Below, one piece after another: positions 2,869-22,507 of a stretch of DNA of 23,832 bases. Position 1 is the first letter of the stretch, and the number at the start of each line of letters is the position of its first letter. The notes beneath the pieces are model-generated. The model was not told the DNA's origin and did no database searches. It saw only the letters and a list, made by a program, of their open reading frames with translations. The translations under genes and the position numbers were made by a program. This DNA is from a virus, in IMG/VR virus record IMGVR_UViG_3300050821_006291, positions 1-23,832 of that record; one strand, 5' to 3'.

Positions 2869-3399
2869 TTACTTACTTAAATGCGTGGCAGCCTTCAAAA
2901 TCCAGGCAATAAATTTATCTGCCGGCATTGACCTTTTAGCCATATTACAAATTCCACAGCAACTCACGCAATTATCAAGGTGGTAGCCTTTATTATTATC
3001 TACCCTATCAATACCATTACAATAAAAGGCTTGGCTGGAATGCATTTGTTTATTTCCCGGTTCCCCACAATAAAAACAAGCCCCAGAAATCAATTTAATC
3101 CACTGCTCGCAATCTAAAGAACACTCGAGATCCCTGGCTATTACATCCTTGCTATGCCATCTATTGAATTCAGAGATATAGTTAGGTTCAGTATTTTTAA
3201 AAGCATTAATATTCTTCAAATACAAGCATCCACACGATTTTGTGGGTCTTGTCGTTCTTACAATATTGTCTAAACAAATAACTTTTGTTCCGCCGCAATC
3301 GCATAAGGTGTTAACAAATACCTGATTTCCTTTTTTATGGGAAACAGACAATATTTGTAACTGGTGATATTTTTTACCTATGCGATCTATTGTTCTCAA
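2869..3399 (-). CDS. HNH homing endonuclease, 176 aa, inserted in the late operon
   Basis: The N-terminal part has a Cys cluster (CDCG at about 33-36 and SCGCL at about 55-59), a DNA-binding zinc element seen in phage homing endonucleases. The C-terminal part is an HNH nuclease: CFYCG (108-112), GIDRVDNNKGYH (129-140) and NCVSCCGICNMAKR (143-156). The start appears to be TTG at 3399, with AGAGG about 10 nt upstream; that ribosome site lies inside a hairpin stem (3406-3438). The gene separates coat from decoration gene, a typical free-standing homing-endonuclease position, and has 90-135 nt non-coding flanks in an otherwise packed operon. It probably cleaves related phages lacking the insert (inference). 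Confidence 0.85.
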   Translation of the reverse strand: MRTIDRIGKKYHQLQILSVSHKKGNQVFVNTLCDCGGTKVICLDNIVRTTRPTKSCGCLYLKNINAFKNTEPNYISEFNRWHSKDVIARDLECSLDCEQWIKLISGACFYCGEPGNKQMHSSQAFYCNGIDRVDNNKGYHLDNCVSCCGICNMAKRSMPADKFIAWILKAATHLSK

Positions 3400-5774: not shown

Positions 5775-7733
5775 TTAAGCCTGGAGCGGTGTTCCCTGTG
5801 CGGGTAGCAACTGACTGACTGCCTGTGGTGCCCCTTGTGCGCTTGCCTGCCCTGTTAAATCGGGTTGAGACGCACTTTGGGGAGCCATGCCGGGTTGCGC
5901 TGAGTTGGAAGGTGCGGGAGCTGTAGGAGCCGACATCAGGTCCTGACAGCGATCGATAAACTTCCTCAAAAGTTCCATATTGTTTTCTTTCACGCCTTTT
6001 TGAGTCTTTGCTCTTAAATATGAAGACTGAGCTAATCTTAATGTTAAGCCCAAATTCATGTATGGATCAGGTTCAGAACATTCCCCATCTTCTAATATTT
6101 GCCCAATTACCATTTCGGCATCATCTATTGCCGCATTCTTCAAACTCATAAATCTATCTAAATCTGGGAAATCTAATAGACTTAATGCAACATCCTTATC
6201 CATCATTCCAGCCTGAACCAGTTCCTGAATCATGCTTAGTTTTCCTGCTGGTGTTGATGGCAATGGAGATACTGCAAATAATTCCATTGTGTATTTATCT
6301 TCCGATAAATCACAATCTTTCCAATCAATTTGTCCTAAGAATTTCCCGCCCTTAACCCCATTAGTATAAGGATTAGTTGCTTTAATCTTTAATTCTGGAT
6401 TGTCAGCATATAAATCTTTACTCAAATCCACTACAATTTTAGCAATTTGAAGAAAGAAATTCTCGTATCTTTGTGCAGTTAATAGCCATCGTTCTGTAGT
6501 CTGATCTGAGTATTCCCTAAGAGCTACAGCCGAATCGAGTCCAGCCGGTTTAACGGAAGCAGCACTTAATTGACTAATACCGCTTATTTCATAGGCTTTC
6601 TTATATAATGAATCCACATAATTGTAAGTCTCTGGATTCATCCCTGTAGCAGTCTGGAAAATAGGAGGATTTCCACCACTATATTTTACAATTCCCCCCA
6701 CTTCATTCGTAATTGTTTTAGTGTTGACATTTGAAGTAGAATCAACATACACCCGAGGAACCGCAATTAATTGGTGTGCTTTTGAAATTGTCTTTAGAAC
6801 ATTGTTAATTTCAAATTGAATACCTGATAATTCTTCCGCTAATCCACTTCCCCAATAACCAAATCTTTTTCCTCGATCTAACTTGACAAACGGAAAATAG
6901 TTCTTTTTATATGGTTCACTAAGCAAGGTAGCATTATCAATACAAATGGTGTGTCTACCATCTGCTGACTTTTTACTTGACGGTAAATGCCAAGATTCAA
7001 TAATCATAATATCATCGGCTGTAGTTCTGTAGTCTTCAATTGACTCAGATCCAACGGTTGCATTCATTATTTCCGTTTCAAAATCTGGATATAATTCTAA
7101 TGCCACATCGCGAGAAACTAATTTGCAGCGATGAATTTGACGGGGTTTTCCATACTTAGCCTCTTGATCATCAACTAATAATTCATCAATAAAAACTCGT
7201 TCACATGCAATTTCCTTTTCATCTTGATCGATAAAAACATGCATGATCCCACTACCCAATACGAGACTATCTAAAAAGCAGTCTTGCCCCGTTTCATAAA
7301 CCCCGCATGAGTCAAATACGCCGGAAATGTACTGAGTTAGATACTTGGCTCGCCTCTGGATCTTAAAATCACCATCGTCCGTCTGGAACAATGGTTGAGG
7401 TTTTTTAGAGCTTATTTTCGCGGCTAAAGTATCACAAGCGCTCTTAACCACATTGAGAGTTACTGCATTAACAGCAAACTTATCCATATTTCGATTAGTA
7501 TTAAATCGGCTGGAAAACCCGAGCATCTGAAAGTTTCCATATAATCTTTCAAATTTCTCATTCTGTAAGCGTCTATAACTCTGGTTTTCACGCATTGAAT
7601 TAACAACACTAAAGACACTGGAAAATAAGGTATCATCCTCGAGTCTCCACCAAGAAGCCTGAATATTATCTATGCCCTTATTATCTACCCCGCCTATCTT
7701 CTTTTTGGTTCGAACAACATCAGTTTCTAACAT
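5775..7733 (-). CDS. Portal protein, 652 aa
   Basis: The ATG at 7733 follows AAAGGAATAG. The protein has the length and architecture of podoviral portals: a helical N-terminus, a wing domain with segments such as VFIDELLVDDQEAKYGKP and IIESWHLPS, a stem/clip region (KLDRGKRFGYWGSGLAEELS; then the helix GIQFEINNVLKTISKAHQL), a GISQLSAASVKPAGLDSA tunnel-loop region around residue 390, and a Pro/Ala/Gln-rich tail after about residue 590. It directly follows the terminase block. The portal forms the dodecameric DNA entry ring at one capsid vertex and docks TerL. A 77-nt spacer with no convincing gene separates it from the scaffold gene. Confidence 0.85.
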   Translation of the reverse strand: MLETDVVRTKKKIGGVDNKGIDNIQASWWRLEDDTLFSSVFSVVNSMRENQSYRRLQNEKFERLYGNFQMLGFSSRFNTNRNMDKFAVNAVTLNVVKSACDTLAAKISSKKPQPLFQTDDGDFKIQRRAKYLTQYISGVFDSCGVYETGQDCFLDSLVLGSGIMHVFIDQDEKEIACERVFIDELLVDDQEAKYGKPRQIHRCKLVSRDVALELYPDFETEIMNATVGSESIEDYRTTADDIMIIESWHLPSSKKSADGRHTICIDNATLLSEPYKKNYFPFVKLDRGKRFGYWGSGLAEELSGIQFEINNVLKTISKAHQLIAVPRVYVDSTSNVNTKTITNEVGGIVKYSGGNPPIFQTATGMNPETYNYVDSLYKKAYEISGISQLSAASVKPAGLDSAVALREYSDQTTERWLLTAQRYENFFLQIAKIVVDLSKDLYADNPELKIKATNPYTNGVKGGKFLGQIDWKDCDLSEDKYTMELFAVSPLPSTPAGKLSMIQELVQAGMMDKDVALSLLDFPDLDRFMSLKNAAIDDAEMVIGQILEDGECSEPDPYMNLGLTLRLAQSSYLRAKTQKGVKENNMELLRKFIDRCQDLMSAPTAPAPSNSAQPGMAPQSASQPDLTGQASAQGAPQAVSQLLPAQGTPLQA

Positions 7734-13131: not shown

Positions 13132-13548
13132 TTATTCCTTATCGGGCTCGACTCGTTTTACTACAGAATAAAATATTGGTATGTTCTTTTTATTTAATAA
13201 TGGTTGAATTTCTTTGAATATTGTATTGAGCCCTTTGTTCATCGCTAATGCTTTTGGCTCAACGGGGGAAAAAGGAATGGTTAAATTCCAGACTCGATCG
13301 ATTTCTATCTGATATTTTTTTGGATCCTTGAGAATTCTGCGGAGCACTCTGGCGGTTTGGATTCCCTCACAAATAAAGTTATCTCCAGATTTTTGCAGAT
13401 CCTTAATAATTAGATCTGGAATATCCGCCCAAGTGCCCTTCCCTATGTATTCATCAGTGTGAATAATATTATACAATGAATCGCAAAGATCATTAGCGAG
13501 TGTCGTTTTGCCGGTCTTACTTCCTCCACAGATAAAAACATGAGCCAT
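13132..13548 (-). CDS. P-loop kinase-like protein, 138 aa
   Basis: The N-terminus MAHVFICGGSKTGKTTLAND carries a perfect Walker A (GGSKTGKT, residues 8-15) directly on the first strand. HTDEYIG (about 30-36) is the usual acidic motif of small-molecule and nucleotide kinases after strand 2, and ICEGIQTARVLRRIL (about 58-72) fits the substrate/base-binding strand-helix with Arg residues. The length is short for nucleoside monophosphate kinases, as in phage 'AAA domain' proteins. The substrate is unknown. AAGGA overlapping the stop of the preceding RHH gene is its ribosome site, so both are co-translated. Confidence 0.65.
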   Translation of the reverse strand: MAHVFICGGSKTGKTTLANDLCDSLYNIIHTDEYIGKGTWADIPDLIIKDLQKSGDNFICEGIQTARVLRRILKDPKKYQIEIDRVWNLTIPFSPVEPKALAMNKGLNTIFKEIQPLLNKKNIPIFYSVVKRVEPDKE

Positions 13549-13806: not shown

Positions 13807-14370
13807 ATGGAGAATGCAATATTTAGCGAAGCTATGCCAAAAATTAAGTTGACTTTAGATGAAATAAATAAATCTGAAGCTCATGCACTCGGATTATTAA
13901 ATAAGAAATCCCGAGCTGAACAAAAACAAGTTGATCCAGATAAATATATTCTGGATACGTCAATGGGAAAAAAAGCAGAATTTGCCGCGGCTCATTATCT
14001 GGAGCAATGCGGATACTCTTGGGTTGAGCCGGATTGTGCGATTTATGCTCAGAATACCGTAGGATTTACACCGGATTTAATTTACGGGGATACAAACATC
14101 CACGTAAAGAGCGTTAGAATAGATAGCTATTTTGGAATTAGCTTCAATTGCTCGATAAATGATGCAATTTTCTACGCACCAAACCCGGCGGATTATATCT
14201 GTGCTGTGATTGCTGACGATAGCAATAACGAGTATTCAATTTTTGCAATCGTCAATTCATTGTTTGCGAAATATAATGAATTGTGGTTGCCGCCCCTGAT
14301 GTCTAAATTTAATGCAACCAAACGATTCATGTACAAGGATATTTTGATCTATGCGAGTTCCTTTATTTGA
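13807..14370 (+). CDS. PD-(D/E)XK nuclease-fold-like protein, 187 aa
   Basis: The start is taken at ATG 13807; ATG 13834 is an alternative. Residues 53-64 (MGKKAEFAAAHY) give the first-helix Glu, 87-91 (FTPDL) the central Asp, and 98-102 (IHVKS) the (E)-x-K position with His where Glu is usual, in the order and spacing of phage and restriction PD-(D/E)XK nucleases (GkkaE..a...l...G...........pDl......i.VK). The His substitution makes catalysis uncertain. It converges on the integrase gene, with the two stop regions overlapping by 8 nt. It may be a host- or competitor-directed nuclease or a DNA-metabolism enzyme. Confidence 0.45.
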   Translation: MENAIFSEAMPKIKLTLDEINKSEAHALGLLNKKSRAEQKQVDPDKYILDTSMGKKAEFAAAHYLEQCGYSWVEPDCAIYAQNTVGFTPDLIYGDTNIHVKSVRIDSYFGISFNCSINDAIFYAPNPADYICAVIADDSNNEYSIFAIVNSLFAKYNELWLPPLMSKFNATKRFMYKDILIYASSFI

Positions 14371-15595
14371 TTACTCGTAGTTTCTCGGCGGGCTTCTGTT
14401 TCCCCTGCCCTATAGATTCCAGTGCTGCCTCGATTGCATCCCTTGAATCGCTATGTAAATAATGCATAGTAGAACTAATAGCCTTATGCCTTAAGTGACA
14501 TTGAATCTTGGTAACATAGACTTCTTTATCAGCAAGATTAGTACCAAGTGAGTGCCTGAATTTGTGATAATTCCGAGTGATTGCAATTGTGGAATCGATT
14601 GTATTAGCGCTTTTCAAGATCATTTCTACCCAATTCCCGATCGTATTGACAGAAGCCGGTCCCGCCCTGAATTTGCTACGATGTGAGAATCTAACTCTCT
14701 GAAAAATTCTGCCCTTTGCCCCATCTGTATGAATTGCCCTTAATGCATTCTTACATCGCTCGGACATATAGACTGTATCGGGTGTCTTGTTTTTGGGTAG
14801 GCGAATTACCTCAGCCTTATCTACCTTACTCACCTTGACAGTTTCGCTAATCTCTACTTCCGAGCGATCCCATAGTACATGTTCCCACCTGAGCCCTACG
14901 CACTCCCCAATTCTTACACCCAGGTCTAATCCACAAACAAATGCAGCATAAATCATGGGGGATTTATTATATGCAATGTCAAGTATTATCTCTTGTTGAA
15001 CGGCTGTATAGTATTTAGAGCCGGAAATTTTTGTTGCTTTTAGTTGCTTGACTCTTTTGACAGTAGCCTTTTCGGTCAGGTACTTTTCAATTTTTGCCCA
15101 ATCAAAAAAGGCTCGTAAGGTATTCAGTGCACCATTGACAGTAGACGGGCTGAGGTTTTTGGGGGTCTTGCTGGTTCTGGATTGAGTTCTCTGGAGTTTG
15201 GAGCGGAAGGTATTTATGGTGCTCTCTTGGGCTGCTACCGATATTCCGAGATCTCCTAAGTGTGGTTTAATGTAGTTATCAAAATCTGTGTGGTACCTAT
15301 CTCGGGTGCCTATGGCTTCTGGGTCAATCTGATCCAAAAAGTCATTGAAACAATCGGAAATAGTTTTCTCAATTGTGGGTGCTTCTGCAATTACTTCAAT
15401 CTCTTCTTTTGCTTCTGGTGTAAGTAATTTGACTACCTTTTGTGCAGCCCATTTTTTACAAACTTCCTCATGTAGTTCTGGCTTTAGGTGTTGGTAGACC
15501 TTACGGGGAATTGTCCAGCGCTTTCTAATTTTATCTTTCCCTTGCATAAACTGGACATCAGCAATTAGCGGAGAGCCTTTAATTTTAATGTTCAT
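14363..15595 (-). CDS. int: Tyrosine-family integrase, 410 aa
   Basis: The site-specific recombinase for prophage integration. The first 70 residues contain an AP2-like arm-binding unit; a core-binding domain (about 75-170; SDCFNDFLDQI to GALNTLRAFFDWAK) precedes the catalytic domain. Catalytic residues are all visible: R228 in GVRIGE, K268 or K270 in LPKNK, H344 and R347 in YHKFRH, H370 in LRHK, and the nucleophile Y379 in MHYLH. The ATG at 15595 lies inside the end of the excisionase-like gene, so the two are co-transcribed. It should be active. Confidence 0.92.
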   Translation of the reverse strand: MNIKIKGSPLIADVQFMQGKDKIRKRWTIPRKVYQHLKPELHEEVCKKWAAQKVVKLLTPEAKEEIEVIAEAPTIEKTISDCFNDFLDQIDPEAIGTRDRYHTDFDNYIKPHLGDLGISVAAQESTINTFRSKLQRTQSRTSKTPKNLSPSTVNGALNTLRAFFDWAKIEKYLTEKATVKRVKQLKATKISGSKYYTAVQQEIILDIAYNKSPMIYAAFVCGLDLGVRIGECVGLRWEHVLWDRSEVEISETVKVSKVDKAEVIRLPKNKTPDTVYMSERCKNALRAIHTDGAKGRIFQRVRFSHRSKFRAGPASVNTIGNWVEMILKSANTIDSTIAITRNYHKFRHSLGTNLADKEVYVTKIQCHLRHKAISSTMHYLHSDSRDAIEAALESIGQGKQKPAEKLRVIK

Positions 15596-15788
15596 TGGAA
15601 TTATCTTTAATATACTTTTCTATTTGGGCTGGAATAAATCTAATGGGTTTTTTCTCGCCCGGTTTGGTTGGAGGACCTAATGGGTAGATTGCTGGAATGA
15701 TACCTTTACGTGCATTTTGGTAGACTGTGTAGTGAGATAGTCCGAGTAGTTCTGCTACCTCCTTCGCTGAGATTGTTTTTTTGCTCAT
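15585..15788 (-). CDS. Excisionase-like MerR/AlpA-type helix-turn-helix protein, 67 aa
   Basis: The segment TISAKEVAELLGLSHYTVYQ is a winged helix-turn-helix recognition unit; GIIPAIYPLGPP followed by PIRFIPAQIEKYI completes the wing and final helix seen in excisionases and AlpA regulators. The start MSKKT (15788) gives the compact family length; in-frame ATG at 15806 and TTG at 15824 would add 6 or 12 residues, and none of the three has a clear ribosome site. TTGACA about 35 nt upstream suggests a promoter close enough to make a leaderless message. The stop overlaps the integrase start, the classic xis-int order, so it probably directs excision and may repress or activate int. Confidence 0.7.
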   Translation of the reverse strand: MSKKTISAKEVAELLGLSHYTVYQNARKGIIPAIYPLGPPTKPGEKKPIRFIPAQIEKYIKDNSNEH

Positions 15789-15824
15789 GCTGAAAAATTT
15801 GAGCATTCTGATTTCAATTGTCAA

Positions 15825-18613: not shown

Positions 18614-18778
18614 ATGAGCAGAAAAAAGACAATAGATTATCCGAACAATATTGTATTCAGAGTTGGAAATGATTTTTTAAAACAGATCAGATCGTTAGCC
18701 AAAAAAGAAAAAACATCATTGTCGAGTTTGATCAGAAAAATTCTAACCGATCATATGGGACCCGGAAATTCCAAATGA
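18614..18778 (+). CDS. Ribbon-helix-helix (CopG/Arc-like) regulator, 54 aa
   Basis: The ATG at 18614 opens a 54-codon frame: basic start MSRKKTIDYP, a strand NNIVFRV (11-17), helix A (NDFLKQIRSLAKKEK) and helix B (SLSSLIRKILTDHM), the order and size of CopG/Arc proteins. CopG-type proteins repress plasmid replication genes and lie directly upstream of them, exactly the arrangement here: 16 nt separate it from the polymerase-like gene. It is therefore a candidate copy or replication control repressor acting on its own promoter, perhaps through the nearby 13-bp box. Confidence 0.65.
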   Translation: MSRKKTIDYPNNIVFRVGNDFLKQIRSLAKKEKTSLSSLIRKILTDHMGPGNSK

Positions 18779-18794
18779 TTAACAAAGGAACTAC

Positions 18795-20129
18795 GTGCAG
18801 AGAATATTTAATCCAGAGCGAGACTGGCGATATTATATTAGAAATTACAAGACATTTAATAATAGCCTAAAAGGTTTTGCAAATTCAGAAGATGCACATT
18901 ATTTAATTGTCTTCTCGAATTTTATTAAAATATGTTTTTATACTGGTGAATTTCATGCGCCTTACAATTATTTCGAGGCAATTGGAATTCCTGATATTAA
19001 ATTACACATTGATAGACTTATATCAAGATATCCCGGAAAAATAGAACTAACTGACTATTCACCTGGAAATCATTGCAGGATCTTGACCACAACCGATCAA
19101 AACTGGATAACTGACATGTATTATAAAATGATGGAATCCAAATCAGAATTATCAAAGGACCAAACTAAATATTATCGTTCTCTGCACAATAAAATATCAA
19201 CTGAACAATCGATTAAATATTCAGATTCGCCAATCATTAAATATGTTGAGTATTTAAACTCAGTAAATCTACCAGAATGCATATTAAATAATTGTGAAGC
19301 CGCAAAGTCAATATTCAAGGATCCATACAGCTTAATTTCAATTCAGGACACCATAGAAAACATAATCTCAAAAAAACCAATAACATTTAATCCTCACGAG
19401 ACGATAAATTATAGAATTGGCGGTTTATTTTCAAATTTGCTCAAGGAGGTTAGGCGATTTATCCTAAAGGATTGTGTTGAGTTTGATATTAAGTCCGCCC
19501 ATTTATCATTTCTGTGCGCAAAAACCGGTTTAGAATTGCCAGATAATATTTACGATTTAATTTCTGCCGAAACTGGATTAAAAAAGGAACTGGTAAAGCT
19601 CTGTATCGTCCGGACCATCTACGGAGGCACACAATCGCCCCGAGACGCGCTGATAACAGATCCTGACCGCAGAGCACGACAGGACCGGAAGCGCGCTAAT
19701 CACTGTCCAGAGGTGACGCAGGATCAAGAGCGAGACGACTACCAGACAATCAAATCTAATCTCTGGTTTTCGCAAATTCTAAATGCGGTGGAAAAATTCT
19801 CAAAAGAAATAATCGATAATAATGGAGTAATGGATGCTTTTGGTAAATTTATTCCTTACACATTCATTTTCGACGATCTCATAGAAGTAAAAACTGACAT
19901 AAAAACTATAATGGCTGCTTATTATTCATCGATTGAAAAACGATTAATAATGAAACTTTTACCATTAACTAATAAAGGAATGAGAATAATTAGCGACGAG
20001 CATGACGGCGTTAGCTGTTATTTTTCTAATCCAGACAGAAAAGAAGAAATGATTAAGTTGTGTAAGAGTGCAGTTGAAAAAGAAGCTAAAAAAATGGGCA
20101 TAAAAACAACATTGGAGATTAAATCATGA
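18795..20129 (+). CDS. Superfamily A polymerase-like replication protein (TV-Pol type), 444 aa
   Basis: It starts with GTG at 18795, six bases after AAAGGA. The three palm motifs of family A DNA polymerases and T7-like RNA polymerases are visible: motif A VEFDIKSAHLSFL with D231; motif B ELVKLCIVRTIYGG with K264, K268, Y276 and G277 (K-x3-K-x7-Y-G, the T7 RNAP R627/K631/Y639 and Pol I R754/K758/Y766 spacing); motif C SDEHDGVS with H403 and D404. DAFGKFIPY (about 347-355) fits the extra Gly-containing segment before motif C. No 3'-5' exonuclease domain is seen. The size and motifs resemble TV-Pol proteins of bacterial mobile elements and viruses. The N-terminal 200 residues are unassigned. An internal GC-rich patch is described separately. 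Confidence 0.6.
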   Translation: MQRIFNPERDWRYYIRNYKTFNNSLKGFANSEDAHYLIVFSNFIKICFYTGEFHAPYNYFEAIGIPDIKLHIDRLISRYPGKIELTDYSPGNHCRILTTTDQNWITDMYYKMMESKSELSKDQTKYYRSLHNKISTEQSIKYSDSPIIKYVEYLNSVNLPECILNNCEAAKSIFKDPYSLISIQDTIENIISKKPITFNPHETINYRIGGLFSNLLKEVRRFILKDCVEFDIKSAHLSFLCAKTGLELPDNIYDLISAETGLKKELVKLCIVRTIYGGTQSPRDALITDPDRRARQDRKRANHCPEVTQDQERDDYQTIKSNLWFSQILNAVEKFSKEIIDNNGVMDAFGKFIPYTFIFDDLIEVKTDIKTIMAAYYSSIEKRLIMKLLPLTNKGMRIISDEHDGVSCYFSNPDRKEEMIKLCKSAVEKEAKKMGIKTTLEIKS

Positions 20130-20551
20130 GCAAGAAAAATAAGAGATTGACCAAGAGAGAATTAAAGGGACAACCAATATCATTTAGTCAGGCAGTGGAA
20201 ATAGGAATGGCGCCAAATTTCGACAAAATAAAACACCTTTTACATGAATACGAAAAGACAAATGATATGGAAGTACCTCCAGGAACCAATTTAAAAGAAA
20301 ACATAGATCTATCTGTATATAAATGTAAGCACTGTAATTTACTAAAATACGGTTTCAATAATATGTTTCAATGCGGCAAATACCTATATAATGTGGAACC
20401 TATTAACTGTGCATCAGTGATCGGACACCTATATTCACGCGCTCTATGTGTGGCAAATAATGATCCGCATGAATTAAAGATCAGCGATAAAGATGGGAAT
20501 TTAATTGATCATGCAGATCTTGATCAATTATTTAATCAGCCAAGAAAATAA
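20126..20551 (+). CDS. Cys-containing protein coupled to the polymerase, 141 aa
   Basis: The ATG overlaps the polymerase stop (ATGA), so both are made together. The N-terminus is basic (MSKKNKRLTKRELKG) and is followed by a short amphipathic helix; YKCKHCNLLKYGFNNMFQCGKY (about residues 65-86; C-x-x-C then one more Cys) and NCASVIG form a likely metal-binding knuckle; the C-terminus is acidic. It might be a replication accessory factor, inferred only from coupling. I do not recognise a family. Confidence 0.6.
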   Translation: MSKKNKRLTKRELKGQPISFSQAVEIGMAPNFDKIKHLLHEYEKTNDMEVPPGTNLKENIDLSVYKCKHCNLLKYGFNNMFQCGKYLYNVEPINCASVIGHLYSRALCVANNDPHELKISDKDGNLIDHADLDQLFNQPRK

Positions 20552-20858: not shown

Positions 20859-21058
20859 GCTATGCAGGAATTGACCCCGACAACGCAGAAGAATTAAGCC
20901 AATACGACCACGACAACGCAGAACCAACATTATCAGAATCAACCGATAATCTACTTTCATTCATCCGTTCAAAAACCTATGAGGAGAAAAAAGATCCTCT
21001 CGTTTTGGCGGAAATTAAGGCTAAAATTGAGGAGTTTGAGAAGGAGTGGATAGGATGA
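20855..21058 (+). CDS. Small acidic protein, 67 aa, unknown
   Basis: The ATG overlaps the previous stop (ATGA). The N-terminal half contains two similar units, IDPDNAEELSQYDHDNAEP (DNAE repeated), and the C-terminal half is a probable helix (LVLAEIKAKIEEFEKEWIG). It has no cysteines, unlike its downstream neighbours. Its 3' end carries AAGGAG eight bases before the next ATG, so it also provides the ribosome site for the next gene. Confidence 0.6.
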   Translation: MSYAGIDPDNAEELSQYDHDNAEPTLSESTDNLLSFIRSKTYEEKKDPLVLAEIKAKIEEFEKEWIG

Positions 21059-21402
21059 GCGAAGGAGTATATGGACACGATTTCGATAGGCGCGATGGTA
21101 AATGTAAGAATTGCGGAATTAATAAAAACAATCACTATCGTATCGAATGTAAAGAGATTATTAAGGCTAACGAGGATGCGGCAGTTAGGAATAATGCTTT
21201 TGCTACTCATCAATGGCGAGTAAGTCCTTTGCCAACCGTTGATAACAAGTACCTATCCGTAGTGTGCAACGTGTGCGGTTTACAATATAGCTACGATGAT
21301 GGCGGCTATTACGGATCAGCAAGTGAAACGGATGTATTTTGGCACAACGATCGTAATAAGCTTTCTTGTGATGAATTAATCATAAAAGGCATCATCGAAT
21401 GA
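21055..21402 (+). CDS. Double-module Cys-rich zinc-ribbon-like protein, 115 aa
   Basis: ATG 21055 overlaps the preceding stop and has AAGGAG upstream. Two copies of the same module are fused. Module 1 (about 7-40) has HDFDRRDGKCKNCG then ECKEIIK. Module 2 (about 50-115) has HQWRV, VVCNVCG and the tail LSCDELIIKGIIE. Each has one His and three Cys in the order H...C-x2-C...C, suggesting one zinc per module. The first module lost its stop codon, giving a fusion. The final codons include the AAAGG ribosome site for the next gene. Confidence 0.65.
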   Translation: MSEGVYGHDFDRRDGKCKNCGINKNNHYRIECKEIIKANEDAAVRNNAFATHQWRVSPLPTVDNKYLSVVCNVCGLQYSYDDGGYYGSASETDVFWHNDRNKLSCDELIIKGIIE

Positions 21403-21914
21403 AACCCATCTATCTCGACCCAACGCAAAACCTATCTTATGGCAATGCAGTAGTGAGCAAAATCGATCATTCTTCCGGGCTAATTATTCTATCTGCGCAA
21501 GACCAGCATTCCAACGGTAATTATACATACAGTAATAGTCCTTATGCTTCTCTTGCGGCAAATGCAATGCAGAACACAATGCAGAGTATTTATCAGTCAA
21601 TGAATCAGCAGCCTTATGCAGGTTTATATAATTGGGCACCATCATTTCAAAAACAATCACTAAAAGACTATGGTGAACAATTTACAACTATCGCCAAGCA
21701 AAAATTGAAAACAGCCCAAGAACTATATGAGGTTCACGGCAATATGATCGATATCAATTATGTCAACCAAGAGTATCTATTTAAATTGAACGAAATGACA
21801 CATACCTGGGACTTCGAAAATCAAAAGTGTAGTAATTGCAATAGTAATTATTGGGGATGCACAGAGAATGAGTTGAGTTGTGATGAAATAATAATAAAGG
21901 ATGTAATTGAGTAG
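21399..21914 (+). CDS. Protein with a Cys-module tail, 171 aa
   Basis: The ATG overlaps the previous stop (ATGA). The first 130 residues are Tyr/Gln/Asn/Ser/Ala-rich and low in charge (for example ANAMQNTMQSIYQSMNQQPY), then a linker helix. The C-terminal 37 residues are the recurrent module: HTWDFENQKCSNCNSN, WGC and SCDEIIIKDVIE. So the module is attached to a large, different N-terminal part here. Function unknown; the module probably binds zinc, and the N-terminus resembles structural or adhesive low-complexity segments. Confidence 0.6.
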   Translation: MKPIYLDPTQNLSYGNAVVSKIDHSSGLIILSAQDQHSNGNYTYSNSPYASLAANAMQNTMQSIYQSMNQQPYAGLYNWAPSFQKQSLKDYGEQFTTIAKQKLKTAQELYEVHGNMIDINYVNQEYLFKLNEMTHTWDFENQKCSNCNSNYWGCTENELSCDEIIIKDVIE

Positions 21915-22110
21915 TCCCGCCGAAAAACTAACTGCGCTACAGGAACTTATCAAAGCTGGATTAATTCCGGTATTTATGGGTCGTGTGTTAATGGATTTCC
22001 CCATACAATCATACGTAATAGACTGTCCCAAATGCCATAACCACACAATTGATGTTTTTGCAAATGAAATGTCTTGTGATGAATGGATAATAAAAGGAAT
22101 AATAGAGTGA
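21907..22110 (+). CDS. Cys-module protein, 67 aa, TTG start
   Basis: The start is TTG at 21907 inside the end of the previous gene, five bases after AAGGA; the other overlaps in the train use ATGA or GTGA, but here the site reads GTAG and the start has slipped to TTG. The N-terminal 35 residues form a helix (SSPAEKLTALQELIKAGLI), then DCPKCHNHTI and EMSCDEWIIKGIIE give the C-x2-C...C module, with the His between the Cys groups rather than before them. Unknown function. Confidence 0.6.
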   Translation: MSSPAEKLTALQELIKAGLIPVFMGRVLMDFPIQSYVIDCPKCHNHTIDVFANEMSCDEWIIKGIIE

Positions 22111-22295
22111 AAAATCCGGAAAAAGCCTTTGAATTTCTTTATTCAGTGGGACATAAATTTACTACTATAAGTGATGATTGCTTAAACTGTGGTGTATCTT
22201 ACGAAACTCTATTAGGCATTTTACTTCATCAGCGGCAAAACAAACAACACCAATCCAATTGTGATGAGTGGATTATAAAAGGAATAATAGAATGA
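22107..22295 (+). CDS. Cys-module protein, 62 aa, GTG start
   Basis: GTG 22107 forms a GTGA overlap with the previous stop; AAAGGA eight bases upstream is contributed by codons of the previous gene's IIKGIIE tail. The sequence has GHKFTTISDDCLNCGVS, a His/Gln-rich loop, and SNCDEWIIKGIIE. The module order H...C-x2-C...C is intact. The last 13 codons are nearly identical in DNA to those of the previous gene, indicating recent duplication or conversion. Confidence 0.65.
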   Translation: MKNPEKAFEFLYSVGHKFTTISDDCLNCGVSYETLLGILLHQRQNKQHQSNCDEWIIKGIIE

Positions 22296-22507
22296 CGCAC
22301 ATATGGAATGACTCCTATACAATTGAGCACGATCGTAATGGTTCGGATGCGATTATGTTGGATCATAAATTTGAGTGTAAACTGTGCGGTATAACAAAAT
22401 ATTACGGCAAAATAGTATACGACAAAAATAATTTAGAATCCGTATTGACAAAACACAGAGACGATATTGAGAATAATTATCCCGCGAGTTGTAAAAGAAT
22501 AGAGTGA
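22292..22507 (+). CDS. Cys-module protein with shortened tail, 71 aa
   Basis: ATG 22292 overlaps the previous stop and uses the AAAGGA in its neighbour's tail. Start MTHIWND resembles the HTWDF of the module in the gene at 21399. A central HKFECKLCGITKYYG provides the H and C-x2-C; the end is PASCKRIE, a version of the tail lacking the middle residues (SC-KRIE against SCDEWIIKGIIE). The shorter tail still ends in GAGTGA, overlapping the next start. It is probably an older or edge member of the array. Confidence 0.6.
   Translation: MTHIWNDSYTIEHDRNGSDAIMLDHKFECKLCGITKYYGKIVYDKNNLESVLTKHRDDIENNYPASCKRIE

Follow-up and report, generated by a model that had tools for sequence, protein, structure and literature searches.

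TV-Pols form a little-studied family with members in transposons, in plasmids and in a few viruses, and were predicted in 2008 to both prime and polymerise (PMC2579912). Members of the family are either linked to a D5 helicase or, standing alone or carrying an N-terminal domain, encoded beside a resolvase, integrase or transposase. A palm-fingers-thumb fold, an absolutely conserved arginine on a beta-hairpin that precedes the palm, and the lack of a nuclease domain in both protein and operon are further characteristics of the family. Recombinase-linked TV-Pols without a neighboring helicase are known (Iyer, Abhiman and Aravind 2008, PMC2579912). The same authors also reported that the cyanophage Ma-LMM01 carries a TV-Pol (PMC2579912). 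CcPol, which is related to the TV-Pols, initiates DNA synthesis de novo in combination with MP; in the 2020 paper on this protein, other members of the TV-Pol family were, to its authors' knowledge, without biochemical characterization (PMC7581432).

We analyzed an IMG/VR virus contig of 23,832 bases (the window) in which a sequence-only reading had proposed a 444-residue protein as a superfamily A polymerase-like protein of the TV-Pol type and as the sole replication candidate. The sequence comparisons described below place this protein in the TV-Pol family, as a new, deep-branching member encoded by a tailed phage. The contig carries genes for a portal protein, a large terminase, an SU10/PHROG-like capsid protein and a tyrosine integrase, as well as an excisionase-like gene, and therefore corresponds to all or part of the genome of a temperate tailed phage. 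The genes of interest are located as follows:

14363-15595, minus strand: tyrosine integrase (Pfam PF00589, 8.6e-14; PHROG 1, 4.9e-38)
15585-15824, minus strand: excisionase-like HTH_17 protein (Pfam, PHROGs)
18614-18778, plus strand: 54-residue ribbon-helix-helix (CopG/Arc-like) protein (weak matches to RHH families, E 0.004-0.02)
18795-20129, plus strand: TV-Pol-like superfamily A polymerase gene, 444 residues (open reading frame and TV-Pol profile match)
20126-20551, plus strand: 141-residue protein with CKHC...C (a CxxC...C pattern; open reading frame)

The polymerase gene is placed in the early region of the phage, between the CopG-like gene and the 141-residue gene. Its coordinates are those given in the sequence-only reading: a clean frame of 444 codons that starts with GTG, preceded by a ribosome-binding-like AAAGGA, and ends with TGA. 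The ribbon-helix-helix gene (54 codons) lies 16 nt upstream, and its product is a probable autoregulator. The start of the 141-residue gene overlaps the polymerase stop (ATGA); this gene is probably translationally coupled to the polymerase gene, and its product is a possible partner of the polymerase. The 141-residue protein has no family match above the cut-off in Pfam, PHROGs and further family searches. The same searches gave no nuclease match for either the polymerase protein or the product of the next gene, in agreement with the proposal that the polymerase lacks an exonuclease.

Direct searches with the window protein detected no relative in Pfam, PHROGs, NCBIfam, PDB sequences, annotated phages, IMG/VR or GTDB contigs, and IMG/VR searches with alignments or with the terminase gave no relatives either. 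A single relative was found by translated search of plasmids, the hypothetical protein WP_157449112 on plasmid pDEIPE01 of Deinococcus peraridilitoris (E 2e-6; 22-25% identity, with an alignment that covers 71% of the window protein). Motifs A (D231), B (K268, G277) and C (HDG) are all retained in this alignment, as is a G..DAFG[KR]F.P element. The Deinococcus gene is located on a megaplasmid, adjoining a gene for an HTH_17 protein and about 4 kb from an IS630 transposase, and its product differs from the window protein in having no counterpart of the ~20-residue insertion after motif B. The best phage matches of the Deinococcus protein, all weak (E 0.4), are family A DNA polymerases of Caulobacter phages.

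For the profile comparisons, the window protein and its Deinococcus relative were combined into a two-protein profile, and the hhalign controls were 100 column shuffles. The TV-Pol profile consists of the only four sequences available, which were recognized by motif, homology and context and not from a curated list. The Ma-LMM01 sequence is the 506-residue MAP_030, chosen by position and motifs and presumed to be the protein described previously (PMC2579912); it is encoded beside two transposase genes and is outside the top profile hits in the Ma-LMM01 genome. A tblastn search with MAP_030 identified one Calothrix and one Polaromonas plasmid, which in turn led to another plasmid of Polaromonas; all three plasmids carry a resolvase/recombinase gene. 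For the PolA reference, eight PolA proteins were aligned, among them those of E. coli (Pol I), T7 (gp5), SP6, phiCbK and ICP1. As expected for TV-Pols, the four-sequence alignment matches the PolA alignment with an hhalign score of 60.3.

The two-protein profile matches the TV-Pols with a score of 98.5 (Prob 97.7, E 1.6e-12; shuffles at most 20.8), and the window protein alone with 40.0 (E 1.9e-4; shuffles at most 21.2), while five unrelated window proteins score 12.9-18.4 against the same profile. Against the eight PolA proteins, the two-protein profile scores 33.8 (shuffles: mean 13.0, maximum 19.4), with motifs A, B and C and the GRR-like element, all present in Pol I and T7 gp5, aligned in register. 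The window protein alone is at chance level against the PolA profile (14.2) and is not matched by Pfam PF00476. When eight phage records were searched with the two-sequence profile as an HMM, no match was obtained, the sequences being too divergent for this type of search, whereas hhalign worked. These matches, far above the column shuffles, place the order and spacing of the motifs noted earlier beyond chance, and show homology of the window protein, at the level of profiles, to TV-Pols and through them to PolA.

The unrooted IQ-TREE phylogeny of the core separates the eight PolA proteins from all six others with support 100. The window and Deinococcus proteins form a pair on a branch apart from the rest (support 83); only the PolA split is taken as firm, since the branches are long and the alignments short. 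Assignment of the window protein to the TV-Pol family is thus well supported by the profile-profile tests with shuffled controls and by the tree, in line with the type proposed from the sequence alone. The following parts of the protein were delineated:

18795-19379, plus strand: N-terminal ~195 residues, without detectable relative (hhalign against TV-Pol N-terminal regions)
19407-19457, plus strand: pre-motif A element, residues 205-221, N-Y-R-I-G-G ... V-R-R (alignment)
19476-19514, plus strand: motif A, residues 228-240, VEFDIKSAHLSFL, with the metal ligand D231 and H236 at +5 (alignment)
19584-19625, plus strand: motif B, residues 264-277 (alignment)
19607-19747, plus strand: GC-rich patch, spanning the latter half of motif B and the insertion behind it (composition)
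19824-19847, plus strand: GVMDAFGK element, residues 344-351, equivalent to GYVxTLxGRR of PolA (alignment)
20001-20009, plus strand: motif C, H403-D404-G405, HDG in TV-Pols and HDE in PolA (alignment; predicted strand-turn-strand at 396-410)

Eleven positions are invariant in the five aligned members, namely Y206 and R220 of the pre-motif A element, L224, D231, K268, G277, E381, H403, D404, G405 and one C-terminal leucine. Both catalytic aspartates of the palm, D231 in motif A and D404 in motif C, are therefore retained in all members compared. No stretch of the five-way alignment is conserved enough for a pattern scan. All seven residues singled out previously (D231, K264, K268, Y276, G277, H403 and D404) are at the positions claimed. 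However, of the motif B residues only K268 and G277 are kept in the six-way alignment, whereas K264 and Y276, which the first reading had emphasized, are variable in the family. In particular, K264 occupies the -4 position of the RxxxK of the first fingers helix, which is not conserved in the four TV-Pols aligned. The GVMDAFGK element represents a fourth motif that the first reading had overlooked.

Histidine at position +5 of motif A and HDG in place of the PolA HDE are TV-Pol-type features, and by both the window protein departs from canonical PolA, which has a glutamate at the former position; the Deinococcus and Calothrix proteins have a glutamine there. In Pol I, the +5 residue is the sugar gate E710, and therefore nucleotide choice is not readable from the sequence of the window protein. 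Two columns of the family are replaced. The pre-motif A arginine of TV-Pols corresponds to N205, and R207, two residues further on, could stand in for this pre-palm arginine; where the other aligned members have the glutamine of their LLQGxE helix, the window protein has S378. Comparison of the N-terminal ~195 residues with the N-terminal regions of the four TV-Pols by hhalign remained at shuffle level, and this part is presumed to bind DNA or a partner. Single-sequence AlphaFold2 models are poor, with a mean pLDDT of 38.6 for the whole protein and 44.1 for residues 200-444. Their usable part is limited to residues ~380-434, modeled as a helix, a strand, a turn with HDG, a strand and a helix, and its resemblance to palm motif C lends weak support to the assignment.

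The GC-rich patch comprises 141 bp, or exactly 47 codons, with 60% GC compared to 31% elsewhere in the gene. Part of motif B is encoded within it, in register. It has no stable fold as RNA or DNA (z -0.85 and -0.49), and its DNA has no match in plasmids. The patch is possibly a segment recombined from a GC-richer relative.

The recombinase-linked TV-Pols (PMC2579912) are thus similar to the window protein in the ordered palm and fingers motifs, D-x4-H, HDG, the invariant K and G of motif B, the lack of an exonuclease and the size, and similar to its locus in the integrase context and the lack of a helicase nearby. The window protein differs from them in its N-terminal part, which is not detectably related, and in the replaced arginine and glutamine, and its gene differs in location, as it belongs to the early region of a tailed phage that encodes head proteins of its own. 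The CcPol-MP system of SCCmec and the PolA-SSB primases (PMC7581432, PMC10061031) likewise have a short A-family polymerase on a mobile element, and de novo priming of DNA together with a small partner has been demonstrated for them. However, CcPol closely resembles ordinary Pol I, including the sugar-discriminating residues of the latter, and is helicase-coupled, whereas neither a helicase nor an OB-fold partner was recognized in the window. By description, the window protein also resembles divPolA1 and divPolA2 of Caudoviricetes, divergent PolA relatives of tailed phages without a working exonuclease (PMC11348598), but these occur in larger genomes beside a regular phage DNA polymerase, and none was seen in the window. 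Pol I and T7 gp5 differ from the window protein by the glutamate gate, HDE and the exonuclease.

No helicase, primase, exonuclease or second polymerase was recognized in the 23.8-kb window, whose only classical Walker A motif is in a 138-residue kinase-like ORF (13132-13548). The earlier claim of a sole replication candidate therefore holds for these 23.8 kb of a contig whose completeness is unproven. With one short TV-Pol gene and no other copying enzyme recognized, this gene is the best candidate for starting the copying of the phage DNA. The reading that we favor, and consider fairly probable, is that the window protein is a divergent TV-Pol that serves as the replication-initiation enzyme of the phage. 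It would be a minimal superfamily A polymerase, consisting of palm and fingers, without an exonuclease and with an unrelated N-terminal part of ~195 residues. The adjacent CopG-like repressor may hold it in check. The enzyme would bind the phage origin or single-stranded DNA via the N-terminal part or the coupled partner, synthesize a primer or a short piece of DNA de novo, with the metal ions bound by D231 and D404, and then hand over to the host helicase and replicase. The putative primase-polymerase role is proposed by analogy with the TV-Pol prediction and the primase activity of CcPol-MP (PMC7581432); no counterpart of MP was recognized in the window. The replacements at N205 and S378 and the poor models count against this reading, and no close relative exists for a test of selection.

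A more far-reaching version, which we regard as doubtful, is that the contig is a complete circular 23.8-kb genome, in which the TV-Pol with its histidine sugar gate would be the only replication enzyme of a primase-polymerase replicon without a phage helicase. Minus-strand frames at both contig ends (1-1012 and 23567-23832) join in frame into a 424-residue fiber-like protein, hinting at a circular, complete genome, although such joining is expected by chance about one time in three. The contig has no end repeat, and it may lack genes, as typical large tail genes are missing. It is unlikely that the polymerase is instead a passenger, belonging together with the recombinase to a mobile element or its remnant in the phage, which would replicate by host enzymes or by genes missing from the contig. 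TV-Pols are indeed typically found in transposon- or plasmid-like elements beside resolvases, integrases and transposases (PMC2579912), and the cyanophage TV-Pol is flanked by transposases in a phage that has its own PolA. However, the surroundings of the window gene showed neither a transposase nor a repeat boundary. The gene is embedded between the CopG-like and coupled genes in the early region, and the contig has no other visible replication gene.

Even less probable is a catalytically weakened or decayed polymerase retained for another task, such as origin binding. The lost arginine and glutamine columns and the patch of foreign composition after motif B are consistent with decay, but the two metal-binding aspartates are intact, as are K268 and HDG, the 444 codons form an uninterrupted frame, and the 47-codon patch leaves the frame intact and supplies part of motif B. 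A T7-like RNA polymerase for phage transcription was rejected as highly improbable. The K-x3-K-x7-Y-G spacing of motif B is equal to that of R627, K631 and Y639 in the T7 RNA polymerase sequence, as noted previously, and the histidine at the PolA E710 position leaves sugar choice open. However, D-x4-H and HDG are characteristic of TV-Pols, the protein is half as long as T7 RNA polymerase (883 residues), and its scores against the latter (13-16) are at the level of unrelated proteins, in a weak test in which the PolA and TV-Pol profiles likewise missed the single T7 RNA polymerase sequence.

The description of the context as unusual was only partly right. The context of the window TV-Pol is sparsely documented, but recombinase-linked TV-Pols without a neighboring helicase are known, the small plasmids of Polaromonas and Calothrix provide further cases, and one TV-Pol is on record in a tailed phage; the surprise is therefore limited. 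As a deep-branching member of the family from a small temperate tailed phage in which no helicase is visible, the window TV-Pol offers a compact test system for three questions: can such an enzyme initiate phage replication by itself, are dNTPs or NTPs its substrates given the histidine gate, and how is the host replisome recruited?

 MAP_030 of Ma-LMM01 (AB231700, 22749-24266) is annotated as hypothetical but carries TV-Pol motifs, and is kept at 96.8% or above in other Microcystis phages. The small plasmids of Polaromonas and Calothrix (7-14 kb) encode TV-Pols without polymerase annotation, two of them at 6095-7600 and 37-1653. The Calothrix TV-Pol runs from 12635 over the start of its record and has no entry in the gene table.

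Three other regions of the window have distinct features. The segment 16000-17000 has ~49% GC in a genome of 38% GC and holds a 234-residue ORF without a family match. A minus-strand ORF downstream of the capsid gene (2869-3399) has CxxC pairs and no Pfam match, and its sequence is reminiscent of an HNH homing endonuclease. Finally, the region 21046-22507 contains tandem small ORFs, most of them with CxxC pairs, whose stops overlap or abut the next starts. Four of these ORFs have the common tail CDE(L/I/W)IIK(G/D)(I/V)IE, and the array looks like a serial duplication of small zinc-knuckle proteins.
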